Assembly: GCF_019455385.1 (NCBI RefSeq) | Contig: NZ_JACOFR010000002.1 | Location: forward strand, 248,001-312,000 | Length of the DNA stretch: 64,000 nucleotides | Reading direction: 5' to 3' | Source of the DNA: Bradyrhizobium sp. BR 10289 | Lineage (GTDB): Bacteria > Pseudomonadota > Alphaproteobacteria > Rhizobiales > Xanthobacteraceae | Shown here: positions 30,245 through 41,672 of the stretch, in pieces | Numbering within the stretch: position 1 is the stretch's first letter | How the letters are laid out: every line of letters starts with the position of its first letter | Notes under the pieces: generated by a model | Databases searched by the model: none | What the model was told of the DNA's origin: nothing | Seen by the model: the letters and a program-made list of their open reading frames with translations, nothing else | Position numbers and translations under genes: made by a program

Positions 30245-30248
<4 letters not shown>

Positions 30249-32119
30249 TATGCGCTCAGCAGATCGACCTTGGCGTTGGCGGCGACCAGCCGCCGCGCCA
30301 GGATGGCGGCGAGATTGCGCATGATCTTCAGCGACGCGTCCGGATGCAGCCGCCGATAATCGGCAAAGCTGTCGAGCGGCAGTTCGAGGCAGGTGACAGG
30401 CGTGTCGGCAAAGACGTCGGCGCTGCGGCTCTGCTCGAGCATCGCCATCTCGCCGAATTCCATGCCGGGGCCGAGCGAGGCGAGCCGCACGCCGCTGCGC
30501 AGCTTGACGCTGACCATGCCGCTCTGGAGGAAGAACAGCGAATTGGCGGGCTCGCCGGCGGCGATGATGCGCTGGCCGGCGGCGTAATAGCGCGTGGTCG
30601 ACAGTTTAACGATTGCGGCGATCTCGTCCGCGTCGAGTTCGGCGAGCAGCGCCTGCTCGCCGAGATGCGAACTCTCCTTCACATCGGTGAAGCCGCCAAA
30701 GCGGTAGATGACCTGGTCCTCGGCCCATTCGATGGCATCATCGAGCAACGCAAATCGCCGCAGCCGGCGCGGATCGGCCGTACGCGTGGAGATCGCCGCC
30801 CATACGGCGGAGGTCTCCTCGACCCCCGAGAGAACGGCAGTGACATCGGCATTGCCGAGCGCGGTCAGCGTCTCGCCGAGCAGTTCGGCGCCGGCGGCCG
30901 TGATATCGGGGACGCGGCGGAAATCGATGATCAGCAGCGGCGCGTTCGGCGGCTCGCTGGTGAGCCTTCGCGTGACATAGTCGATGGTGCCGAAATTCAT
31001 CGCGCCGACCAGCTCGAGCACCCGGACGTCGCTGTGGCGTTCGTCGAGGATCTGCTGCTCGCGCGGCTGGCGGCTGCGGCGCGAGGAGATGCCGTAGATG
31101 TCGTAGTCCGCCATGATGCTCGTCCGCACATCGGCGTTGCGGTTGAGCATATGCAGATCGAACCGGGCCGACAGCGCCTCGCAGACCTTGAGGCCGCGCA
31201 CACTGTTGAAATGATTGTCGAGCAGCGGCGAGAAGGTGCCGAGCCCGAGCTGTGAGGGCAGCGCCGCGACAATGCCGCCGCCCACCCCGCTCTTGGCGGG
31301 AATGCCGACGCGGTAGGTCCATTCGCCGGCATAATCGTACATGCCCGAGCTCGTCATCACCGACAGGGTGCGCGCGACGATGTGCGGCGTGATCACCTGA
31401 ACGCCCGTCACCGGATTGATGCCGCGATTGGCAAGCGTTGCCGCCATCACCGCGAGATCGCGCGCCGTCACCAGGATCGCGCATTGGCGGAAATAGACAT
31501 CGAGCACGGCATCGACATCATCGGGCAGCACCGCGTAATTCCGCAGCAGCCAGGCAATGGCCCGGTTGCGATTGCCGGTCGCGGTCTCCGAGGCGTGCAC
31601 GGCTTCGTCGACGCCGAGCTCGCGCCCGGCGAACTGGCTCAGTTTTGCGCGGACGCGCTCGAAGGCGCCGCTGCCGTCGACCTCGTAGATCAGGCCCGAG
31701 CAGGCGATGGCGCCGGCATTGACCATCGGATTGAACGGACGATTGTCGTTGGTAAGCCGGATCGAATTGAAAGCCTCGCCGCTCGGCTCGACGCCGATGG
31801 TGGCCGCGACCCGTTCCTCGCCAACCGCCTCCAGCGCCAGCGCGAAGACGAAGGCCTTCGAGACCGACTGGATCGTGAAGGGGACCGCGCTGTCACCGAC
31901 CTCATAGACATGGCCGTCGATGGTGACGAGCGCGATGCCAAAATGATCGGGATTGGCGCGCTTCAGCTCGGGGATGTAGTCGGCGAGCTCGCCGGACTTA
32001 TCGGTCCGGAATTGCTCGTGGCATTCGGTCAGGAAACGCCGCAGCGGTGGCCTGGTGGGATATCCGGCCGATCGGGCGACGCTGGCTGCGTTGGGCGAAC
32101 GGCGGGTCTGGGCGTCCAC
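30245..32119 (-). CDS. glsA: Glutaminase fused to STAS and cNMP-binding domains
   Basis: A 624-residue three-domain protein. Residues of about 20-310 form a serine-dependent glutaminase (SVSKAF with the Ser-x-x-Lys pair, NDNRPFNPMVNAGAI, GIPAKSGVGGGI) that turns glutamine into glutamate and ammonia. Residues of about 355-470 resemble a STAS domain (LIIDFRRVPDITAAGAELL). Residues of about 490-610 form a cyclic-nucleotide-binding domain (IIAAGEPANSLFFLQSG, GPGMEFGEMAML). GTG at 32119 is preferred, with GAGG nine bases upstream; a TTG lies 8 codons earlier. The extra domains suggest allosteric control, possibly by cAMP; that is inference. Confidence 0.92.
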
Positions 32120-32266
32120 GGTCTCACACCTCGATTTGCTCAAAAACCAAGCAATTCATGTGCCATGTATACCGGAGAAGACTGTGGCACGGTGCCGCGA
32201 GAAAGACGACGGCGGCGCGGCCTGACGCTGCGGTGGACCCACAATTGTACCGCTCGGTCCGGCAGC

Positions 32267-37161: not shown

Positions 37162-37179
37162 CGCAATGCTGCCGCAATG
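37162..37179 (+). promoter_or_regulatory. 11-bp-period direct repeat before response regulator
   Basis: CGCAATG-CTGC-CGCAATG: two identical heptamers 11 bp apart, as expected for a tandem-bound OmpR/PhoB-type dimer. TAGAAT, a plausible -10, begins 10 bases after the repeat, so the site covers the -35 region. The same repeat recurs at 39310-39327 before the PmtA-like gene. Autoregulation by the adjacent response regulator is inference. Confidence 0.6.
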
Positions 37180-37224
37180 ATCGGGCCGCTAGAATGGCTG
37201 AGTTGCGGTCGAGGTGCCCATTAC

Positions 37225-37899
37225 ATGCGGATTTTGCTCGTCGAAGATGAGGCGGAGATGGCCGGCGCATTGTCGTCGGCGCTGAAGCGCTACGACATGG
37301 TCGTGGACCACGCCCCGACGCTCGCCGAGGCGGAGGAGGCCATTTCCGCCGACGTCCATGCCGCCGTTCTGCTTGACCGCCAGCTCCCCGATGGAGATGG
37401 CCTGGCGCTGATCCCGAAGCTTCGCGCGCGCGCCGACGGCGTGCCGATCATCGTGCTCACCGCGCGCGGCGAGCTCGCCGACCGCATCGCCGGGCTCGAC
37501 AGCGGCGCCGATGATTATCTGGCAAAGCCATTCGCAGTCGAGGAGTTGCTGGCGCGGCTGCGTGCGGTGCTGCGGCGGCCCGCGGGCCTCTCTCCTGAAA
37601 TCATCCGCGCCGGCCGTCTCGCCTTCGATGTCGGCCATCGCGAAGCCAGCATCGACGGCCAGCCGTTCGAGCTGCCGCGCCGCGAGCTCCTGGTGCTCGA
37701 AGCCTTGATCCGCCGCATCGGCCGGACCGTGCTGCGCTCGGCGCTGGAAGAAGCGGTCTACAATTTCGACGACGAGATCCAGTCGAACGCGCTCGACACG
37801 CATATCTCGCGGCTGCGGCGCAAGCTTGCCGACGCCGAGGCGGGCGTGGAGATCCACGGCATTCGCGGTGTCGGCTATCTCCTGAAGAAACTAACATGA
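37225..37899 (+). CDS. OmpR-family response regulator
   Basis: A 224-residue response regulator. The receiver domain has the acidic pair in LLVEDEAEM, the phosphoacceptor D51 in AVLLDRQLPDG, the Thr in VLTARG and the Lys in LAKPFAVEELLARL. A winged-helix DNA-binding domain follows (about 125-222: LALDTHISRLRRKL is approximated by NALDTHISRLRRKLADAEAG). It resembles QseB/PmrA/TctD regulators. Its stop overlaps the kinase gene start by 4 bases (ATGA). Confidence 0.95.
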   Translation: MRILLVEDEAEMAGALSSALKRYDMVVDHAPTLAEAEEAISADVHAAVLLDRQLPDGDGLALIPKLRARADGVPIIVLTARGELADRIAGLDSGADDYLAKPFAVEELLARLRAVLRRPAGLSPEIIRAGRLAFDVGHREASIDGQPFELPRRELLVLEALIRRIGRTVLRSALEEAVYNFDDEIQSNALDTHISRLRRKLADAEAGVEIHGIRGVGYLLKKLT

Positions 37900-39284
37900 G
37901 CACGATCAGCGTACACCACGAGGATCCCTACTGCCTGCGCTCGCAGCTGAGTTGGCGCCTGCTCTGGCTCCAGGCTGCGATCCTGATTGCGCTGGTCGCG
38001 GTCGTCCTCGCCGGGCTGTGCGCATCCGGCTTCGTGCTCGCCGAACGCGACGAGGACCGCGTGATCGACATCGTGCAGCGCGCGCTCGCGCGTGATGCGC
38101 AGGGCGGCCTGATCATCCGCCCCACGGCCGAGCTGAGACAGTTGCGGGGCGAAACGCCCGATCTGTGGTTCCTGGTCCGCGACAAGCAAGGACATTCGCT
38201 CAGCGAAGGCACGGTGCCGGCCGAATTCGCCGCGATCGGGGGCGGCCTAGACCAGATCAGCCAGGCGCGGCTCGGCTGGCAGATGTTCGAGGACGATCCG
38301 CGCAAACCGGCGGCGCGGCTCAAGCGCGTCGACACCGACGCCGGTAACGTCCAGATCATCACGGCGACGCAGGGACGGATGACCGGCGCCAAGGCGCTGG
38401 TCATGACATCGCTTGCGTTTCTCGGCATCGCCCTGCCCGGCCTGCTGCTGATGGGAACGGCGACGTTCATTGCGACACCGATGATCGTGCAGCGCGCGTT
38501 CAGGAGGCTCGACACCACGGCCGACGAGGCGCGCCGCATCGACATTCACCAGCGCGGCGCGAGGCTCTCGGTGGAACGGATTCCGCTGGAGGTCGTGCCG
38601 CTGGTGAGCGCGATCAACGACGCGCTGGCGCGGCTCGACCAGGGCTATGCCCGCCACAAGCGCTTCGTCGCCGACGCCGCGCACGAGCTGCGCACGCCGA
38701 TCGCGATTCTCAATACGCGCCTTGAATCGCTCAGCCCCTCGCCGGACAAGACGCGGCTGCTGGAGGATGCCGCGCGGCTGGCGACGCTCGCCGAACAATT
38801 GCTCGACATCCAGCGGCTCGACCGCTGCGGCCATCCCTTCACCAACGTCAATCTCGCCGCGGTCGCGCAAAGCGTCGCCGCCGATCTCGCACCGCTGGCG
38901 ATCGCCGCCGGCTACGAGCTGGCGCTCGATGCGCCGGAGACGCCGATCGAGACGATCGGCGATGCGGCGGCGCTGGAGCGCGCACTGACCAATCTCGTGC
39001 AGAATGCGATCCAGCACGGTCCGCGCCGCGGCACCATCGGGATTCGCGTCTCCAGACCCGCATGCATCGAGGTCAGCGACGAAGGCGCCGGCATTCCCGC
39101 CGACCAGCGCGAACAGGTGTTCGAGCCGTTCTACCGGCTGGCGCCGCTCGATCGCGGCGCCGGCCTCGGCCTCAACATGGTGCGCGAGATCGTGCAGCTG
39201 CATGGTGGTCACGTCTCGGTCGCGGACGGCCCCGATAGCGGCGCCTGCTTCAGGATGACGCTGCCGCCGATGCGACAAAGCTGA
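37896..39284 (+). CDS. Sensor histidine kinase
   Basis: A 462-residue membrane kinase, partner of the overlapping response regulator. Transmembrane helix 1 (about 23-50) and helix 2 (about 170-195) flank a periplasmic sensor of about 120 residues. A HAMP-like linker leads to the dimerisation domain with phosphoacceptor H263 in AAHELRTPIAILN. The ATPase domain has N-box NLVQNAIQHGPR, G1 EVSDEGAGIPADQ and G2 GAGLGLNMV. The signal is unknown; PmrB/QseC-type kinases are the closest group by layout. Confidence 0.94.
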   Translation: MSTISVHHEDPYCLRSQLSWRLLWLQAAILIALVAVVLAGLCASGFVLAERDEDRVIDIVQRALARDAQGGLIIRPTAELRQLRGETPDLWFLVRDKQGHSLSEGTVPAEFAAIGGGLDQISQARLGWQMFEDDPRKPAARLKRVDTDAGNVQIITATQGRMTGAKALVMTSLAFLGIALPGLLLMGTATFIATPMIVQRAFRRLDTTADEARRIDIHQRGARLSVERIPLEVVPLVSAINDALARLDQGYARHKRFVADAAHELRTPIAILNTRLESLSPSPDKTRLLEDAARLATLAEQLLDIQRLDRCGHPFTNVNLAAVAQSVAADLAPLAIAAGYELALDAPETPIETIGDAAALERALTNLVQNAIQHGPRRGTIGIRVSRPACIEVSDEGAGIPADQREQVFEPFYRLAPLDRGAGLGLNMVREIVQLHGGHVSVADGPDSGACFRMTLPPMRQS

Positions 39285-39309
39285 TACAATTCGCCTTCGT
39301 CTCCGACAG

Positions 39310-39327
39310 CGCAATGCTGTCGCAATG
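39310..39327 (+). promoter_or_regulatory. 11-bp-period direct repeat before PmtA-like gene
   Basis: CGCAATG-CTGT-CGCAATG, identical to the repeat at 37162-37179 in 17 of 18 positions. It lies 69 bases before the PmtA-like ATG and 10 bases before AAACTG, a weak -10-like hexamer in the same relative place. This indicates that the response regulator also controls the methyltransferase gene (inference). Confidence 0.6.
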
Positions 39328-39396
39328 CGCTTCCCCGAAACTGCATCCGTCTCACCTCTGATCTCTCGAGGTGCAAACCAAGATGCTGGAGTGCGC

Positions 39397-41672
<2,276 letters not shown>

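Follow-up and report, generated by a model that had tools for sequence, protein, structure and literature searches.

The promoter architecture considered here has its closest described counterpart in the PHO box, which was first defined as a pair of 7-nt direct repeats spaced by 4 nt and later as two 11-nt units, and to which PhoB binds head-to-tail over 18 bp (PMC4415409); equal spacing has been reported for another regulator of the PhoB type (PMC4832192). Two-component systems (TCSs) have also been connected with membrane phospholipids. The CinKR system of Streptomyces cinnamoneus controls Cinorf10, a phosphatidylethanolamine (PE) methyltransferase encoded in the same cluster (PMC5408092), while ExoS/ChvI of Sinorhizobium meliloti is reported to be activated when phosphatidylcholine (PC) is absent (PMC8343143). 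Bradyrhizobium encodes extra pmt genes that function in E. coli, yet are reported to be off in laboratory culture: PmtX2-4 are described as silent under standard laboratory conditions (PMC3972451), and PmtX4 (BAC50069; PMC11409717) gives 65% MMPE and 15% DMPE when produced in E. coli (PMC8590670). In B. diazoefficiens the PC level is reported to be important for how nodules function (PMC8590670, PMC11409717), so that a means of inducing PE methylation is of relevance to symbiosis. The accessible portions of the literature on the extra Bradyrhizobium pmt genes, including PmtX4, name no regulator, a search of titles and abstracts, mostly of non-subscription articles, found no TCS tied to pmtX4, and the string GCAATG was absent from papers among the matches listed in the literature search.

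The locus described here belongs to Bradyrhizobium sp. BR 10289 (GCF_019455385.1) and lies in a window, that is the whole stretch of DNA analysed, of 64,000 nt (NZ_JACOFR010000002.1, 248,001-312,000). A response regulator (RR) gene (37225..37899, + strand, 224 aa; receiver and OmpR-type winged helix, Pfam PF00072 and PF00486) overlaps by 4 bp with a sensor histidine kinase gene (37896..39284, + strand, 462 aa; PF00512, HisKA, and PF02518, HATPase_c). The adjacent gene (39397..40032, + strand, 211 aa) encodes an S-type phospholipid N-methyltransferase-like protein (PMT; NCBIfam NF045881, PDB 9KO3) that is taken to be the probable PmtX4 ortholog. Neighbours of the locus are a NIPSNAP gene and, judging from our own inspection of the open reading frames, kdsA and pyrG. 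Two 7-4-7 direct repeats accompany these genes: box 1, CGCAATG-CTGC-CGCAATG (37162..37179, + strand), has the RR start codon 45 bp downstream, and box 2, CGCAATG-CTGT-CGCAATG (39310..39327, + strand), is located in the gap between kinase and PMT, with the PMT start codon 69 bp downstream. The original prediction had singled out these two 18-mers as identical at 17 of 18 positions, which proved correct, and had read two heptamers 11 bp apart as OmpR/PhoB-type geometry; tandem half-sites are indeed found in both putative target promoters and are conserved in orthologs.

As in PhoB-dependent promoters, a 7-4-7 direct repeat is situated just upstream of a -10 element. The half-site, however, is CGCAATG and not CTGTCAT, there are just two exact boxes in the genome, and the putative target is a lipid methyltransferase. 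CinKR-Cinorf10, likened here by description, shares with our locus the joint encoding of a TCS and a PE methyltransferase, but it is part of an actinomycete antibiotic cluster and its proposed trigger is a PE-binding lantibiotic (PMC5408092). ExoS/ChvI is likewise a TCS connected with PC; there, in contrast, the lipid state acts on the kinase, and the accessible part of the report mentions no dedicated PMT target (PMC8343143). PmtX4 of B. diazoefficiens resembles the window PMT in being an S-type Pmt of Bradyrhizobium. The parts are of known kinds, and a PE methyltransferase under TCS control is known from CinKR-Cinorf10. New, as far as the literature was searched, are the box belonging to the kinase-regulator pair, the fact that this pair accompanies S-type PMTs in several genera and in either of two gene orders, and the likely connection with a pmt gene reported as silent. 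A candidate regulator, a putative operator at base level and a predicted two-promoter regulon for what is probably the silent pmtX4 make its control testable.

The kinase and regulator had been likened to PmrAB and QseBC. Pfam scores of 88 bits for PF00072 (cut-off 30.2) and 69.4 bits for PF00486 (cut-off 26.2) place the RR in the OmpR/PhoB class, and its best-scoring NCBIfam models are PmrA at the top, TctD, RppA and QseB, all under their curated cut-offs. The RR reaches 191.5 bits against a cut-off of 330 for PmrA and 160.5 against 345 for QseB; the kinase reaches 123.7 against 314 for PmrB and 125.9 against 475 for QseC, and neither family name is retained. While PmrA and QseB are thus among the best models for the RR, the putative target here is PmtA-like, and the PmrA box differs from the CGCAATG half-site.

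Conservation was followed in 80 loci, the best 80 of 215 kinase matches on genome contigs, which were picked by kinase similarity and not by the box; nearly all are from Bradyrhizobium, joined by a Xanthobacteraceae MAG, a Tardiphaga MAG and Nitratireductor soli. The box before the RR has no mismatch in 50 and one mismatch in 30 of the 80. Leaving aside one locus that ends inside the kinase gene (L073), the box before the PMT has no mismatch in 64, one in 13, two in one and four in one of 79, the last (L106) having a contig end nearby and no PMT found there. Conservation at orthologous loci was an expectation of the original prediction, and it is borne out in these best 80 of 215, with at most one mismatch before the RR in 80/80 and at most two before the PMT in 78/79, while the flanks drift. 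Some loci carry CGCAATGTTGYTGCAATG before the RR. Mean information amounts to 1.82 bits per base over each box, making the box the best-conserved part of each stretch analysed; non-overlapping 18-bp stretches average 0.48 bits per base and attain at most 1.04 (RR) and 0.86 (PMT), and the best of them outside the box lies directly downstream of it and contains the -10. It is important to point out that the 80 loci are not independent and mostly represent one syntenic site, because kdsA is shared by 75, NIPSNAP by 77 and pyrG by 74 of them; the case for selection on the box is argued from its contrast with the drifting flanks.

A -10-like hexamer had been predicted 10 bases downstream of each box. 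This applies to the RR promoter, where TAGAAT (37190..37195, + strand) starts exactly 10 bp past box 1, but not to the PMT promoter, where AAACTG occupies that position; the better candidate there is GAAACT (39337..39342, + strand), which starts 9 bp past box 2 and is weak in the window. Among 78 distinct orthologous sequences from the best 80 of 215 loci, T (91%) and A (95%) prevail at the first two positions of the TAGAAT site; among 77 distinct sequences from the same loci, the second-position A of the GAAACT site is invariant, with A at the fourth position in 84% and T at the sixth in 71%. The distance from box to start codon is 42-47 bp in 75/80 RR genes (3, 40, 55, 61 and 102 bp in the other five) and 60-72 bp in 76/78 PMT orthologs, again among the best 80 of 215. 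Both boxes sit at the -35 location with the -10-like hexamer 9-10 bp beyond, and by eye neither promoter has a consensus -35 of its own. The spacing between box and -10 is the same as that of PhoB, and the layout is that of PhoB-activated promoters.

Because the box occupies the -35 site, the -10 follows 9-10 bp on and the distances to the start codons are conserved, the arrangement points to an activator with positive autoregulation. We consider it probable that boxes 1 and 2 are operators of the adjacent RR, in a self-activating TCS that drives the adjacent pmt gene, and the sequence evidence strongly suggests that the regulator controls both its own operon and the neighbouring PMT gene. In such a system a membrane or envelope signal would cause the kinase to phosphorylate the RR, and an RR dimer would bind head-to-tail in the -35 region, at a distance of 9-10 bp from the -10, where the two half-sites are spaced by one helical turn. 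The bound RR would switch on its own RR-kinase operon and also the adjacent pmt gene, whose product, probably PmtX4, would methylate PE to mainly MMPE/DMPE and thereby change the membrane head groups.

A box that covers the -35 region might equally be used for repression, with an RR dimer keeping both promoters off until a signal releases them. The silence of the PmtX genes in culture, reported for two of them in the source cited here, fits repression as well as it fits missing activation (PMC11409717), and the position of the box at -35 is compatible with either. At both promoters, however, the box ends 9-10 bp before the -10-like hexamer and leaves it uncovered. A separate consensus -35 is not apparent by eye at either promoter, and the layout shared with PhoB-activated promoters also speaks against repression, which we regard as unlikely.

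The association of the kinase with the PMT was examined in 117 genus genomes. At E <= 1e-60 the kinase is found in 55 and the PMT in 59 of them; 53 have both, two the kinase only, six the PMT only and 56 neither (Fisher p 8e-24, a figure that ignores shared ancestry). One of the kinase-only genomes is 80% complete (G035) and the other has kinase and PMT in pieces (G057), and the matches in the six PMT-only genomes are of 60-63% identity. A PMT lies within 3 kb of 63 of the 68 kinase matches (some genes being in two pieces), downstream on the same strand in 53 cases and upstream on the opposite strand in 10; the five matches without a nearby PMT are those in G037 (at a contig end), G077, G057 (two pieces) and G035. 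Separately, ten genomes (G101, G107, G004, G086, G069, G044, G042, G049, G010 and G088) contain a paralogous kinase (~51-57% identity) with its own divergent PMT (~60-64% identity), in most of them in addition to the main locus.

Eighteen of the 80 genus PMT matches have no adjacent kinase match. No box was found in 14 of the 17 kinase-free copies fetched (best 4-5 mismatches), and many of these boxless PMTs come, by eye, after a dehydrogenase-like gene; the eighteenth (C188 in G037), which sits at a contig end, has the exact box (L120). Three genomes (G115, G095 and G018) have an unlinked PMT preceded, 59-63 bp upstream, by a box with 1-2 mismatches. These stretches contain no RR or kinase relative of the system at E <= 1e-3, all three genomes carry the main locus elsewhere, and in the one of the three that was tested the gene after the PMT encodes a VTT (DedA-type) domain. 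The unlinked boxed PMTs provide the only hint of possible control in trans.

Outside the genus, a family search (kinase E <= 1e-60; matches in 19/149 genomes and 10/47 genera) and an order search (kinase E <= 1e-70; 23/249 genomes and 12/111 genera) together yielded 50 distinct loci, the window and a few same-genus loci included, with one listed match lacking a locus. An RR box, with up to two mismatches over 12 positions and located 35-66 bp upstream of the RR, is present in 37 of the 50. The fetched stretch includes a PMT in 26 loci, 25 of which have the RR box, and no PMT in 24, of which 12 have it; as half of the PMT-less loci are boxed and 13/50 loci have no RR box, the box tracks the regulator more closely than it tracks the PMT. 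Sixteen of the 26 loci have the PMT downstream on the same strand and 10 have it in divergent orientation, and this pairing in several genera and two gene orders argues that the link between kinase and PMT has been selected and is not an accident of one locus. A second box with one mismatch faces the PMT in four of the divergent loci (L191-L194), and the other six have no PMT-facing box at up to two mismatches. Nine of the 16 downstream-PMT loci have a box with at most two mismatches within 250 bp past the kinase, four of them at exactly two; on the PMT side, the box of distant genera is degenerate. Among the 13 loci without an RR box are L199, L200, L204, L205 and L209-L212, which look as though they may form a separate lineage.

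These comparisons bear on the proposition that another OmpR-family regulator binds the boxes and that the adjacent TCS is merely one of its targets. OmpR-family paralogs are numerous and alike, and the three genomes in which a boxed PMT stands apart from any kinase or RR relative would agree with such a scheme; yet all three own the system elsewhere. Moreover, the box goes along with the RR across genera (37/50 loci), and the eight distant-kinase loci listed above are without an RR box at up to two mismatches. We therefore hold a foreign regulator to be quite improbable and favour the adjacent RR as the protein that would bind both boxes.

The rarity of the box points to the same two promoters. 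At up to two mismatches CGCAATGCTGNCGCAATG, the form with the spacer CTGN, has two occurrences in the window where 0.06 would be expected, and none of 100 shuffles had two or more; a looser pattern at up to three mismatches showed no enrichment in the window (13 found vs 16.15 expected). An exact search of the whole genome (7,755,363 bases, 61 contigs) for CGCAATG-N4-CGCAATG returned two matches, boxes 1 and 2, so that the heptamer pair occurs exactly only in these two promoters and is not common at random sites. At up to two mismatches the same pattern has 129 genome places vs 25 for the reversed control, for which reason looser versions of the box mean little, and a 6-5-6 core has five exact places, three of them elsewhere than the locus. 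The compact regulon of the original prediction survives as a conserved box that connects the regulator both with its own gene and with the PMT, with two exact boxes in the genome, and not as a PmrAB/QseBC-like system.

Exact boxes occur in 61 of the 117 genus genomes, at a total of 100 places by hand count (compared with 7 for the reversed control), and 33 genomes have a pair of exact boxes about 2.1 kb apart. Sixteen of the 100 places are away from the locus and are treated as background; at least eight of them fall inside two genes seen repeatedly, which by eye encode an AraC-type regulator and a sugar-kinase-like protein, and the remainder are mixed, with L111, L131 and L147 among the few that are not clearly coding. 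That the repeat reflects chance, composition or the coding constraint of an extended PMT reading frame, an ORF being able to begin at the in-frame ATG inside box 2 (39325), can appeal to the 129 genome places at up to two mismatches and to the matches within the two recurring genes, but is contradicted already by a box that stays constant while its flanks drift, by the position of box 1 upstream of a conserved RR start and by the orthologs, only 22/78 of which have the box 2 ATG in frame without a stop as against 78/78 that keep the downstream ATG, and we give it practically no credence.

A third member of the regulon was also sought in the genome among 14 one-mismatch places, many of which are inside likely genes. 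The best candidate, a place with the same spacer (L012), was found in 12 of 25 other genus genomes, with the box unchanged in one and weaker or absent in 11, and was rejected because the box changes while the adjacent bases are kept. Another (L003) lies inside a regulator-like gene adjoining a pobA-like gene (by eye); its counterparts in four other genomes have an exact box, yet are coding too, and it was likewise discarded.

The PMT scores 103.7 bits against NCBIfam NF045881 (PmtA, Agrobacterium type), under the cut-off of 250, and by this measure is a relative and not a PmtA equivalog. Its closest solved structure is PDB 9KO3 (E 2.8e-22), which is AtPmtA (PMC12139422). A SAM motif, ELGPGTG from residue 46, fits E/DxGxGxG, and a groove motif reads F146-T-Y148, with Y148 in a YGM stretch aligned with SYG of the 9KO3 chain; in our own reading this SYG holds Tyr161 of AtPmtA. 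The window PMT accordingly has both the SAM motif and the conserved substrate-groove Tyr of S-type PMTs. The groove residues are described as Ile159 and Tyr161 in AtPmtA and as Phe161 and Tyr163 in B. diazoefficiens PmtA, activity being linked to the Tyr and the range of substrates to whether Ile or Phe is present (PMC12139422). Because the window PMT has F146 and Y148 in its groove motif, it is predicted to make mainly MMPE/DMPE. The only other PMT relative in the genome at E <= 1e-5 is C9, which has 40% identity and no box at up to two mismatches in the stretch fetched (L187). The window PMT is probably PmtX4 of B. diazoefficiens (BAC50069), an assignment made from accession numbering and gene numbers and not from sequence: PmtA (BAC45946) is presumably blr0681, which would make BAC50069 gene 4804, and this gene we take to lie by pyrG.

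No Pfam sensor domain was detected in the kinase at E up to 5. The model of its N-terminus, the sensor domain, has a mean pLDDT of 66 and no match in the PDB at E <= 0.001; the best match, the sensor domain of PhoQ (E 0.03), is too weak to name a signal. Tentatively, and with more doubt than conviction, the system may be envisaged as a homeostat of membrane lipids or a defence switch present in several Hyphomicrobiales genera. The kinase would sense either altered lipids in the inner membrane or a compound that acts on membranes, for instance a PE-binding peptide made by soil actinomycetes, and the RR would turn on a normally silent PE methyltransferase that masks or replaces PE, in some species together with an unlinked PMT-VTT/DedA pair in trans. 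If true, this would explain why Bradyrhizobium retains silent extra pmt genes and how one extra pmt rises upon loss of pmtA.

Several minor observations may be recorded. The unlinked boxed PMTs of the three genomes mentioned above (L235, L236 and L237, also L244-L246), each followed by a VTT/DedA-type gene, lie by eye downstream of oxidase-like genes. In one genome (L153 in G016) the RR and kinase genes have seemingly been lost, leaving NIPSNAP, the box and then pieces of the PMT; the genome is fragmented, and the gap is either a deletion or an assembly fault. One family genome (G208) has five kinase relatives (L165, L180, L183, L184 and L185), and for two of these the stretch fetched also contains a PMT. 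Within the window, positions 30245-32143 (- strand) encode, by translation, a glutaminase-like domain seemingly fused to STAS-like and cyclic-nucleotide-binding-like domains. Finally, relatives of the TCS without a nearby PMT (L184, L188, L195, L201, L203 and L208) have a similar box, with 0-2 mismatches, after the kinase gene; a box with two mismatches precedes genes for a beta-barrel protein (L184), a patatin-like phospholipase (L188) and a DUF3313 protein (L203), which suggests that there may be a wider set of modules composed of a regulator plus one envelope gene.
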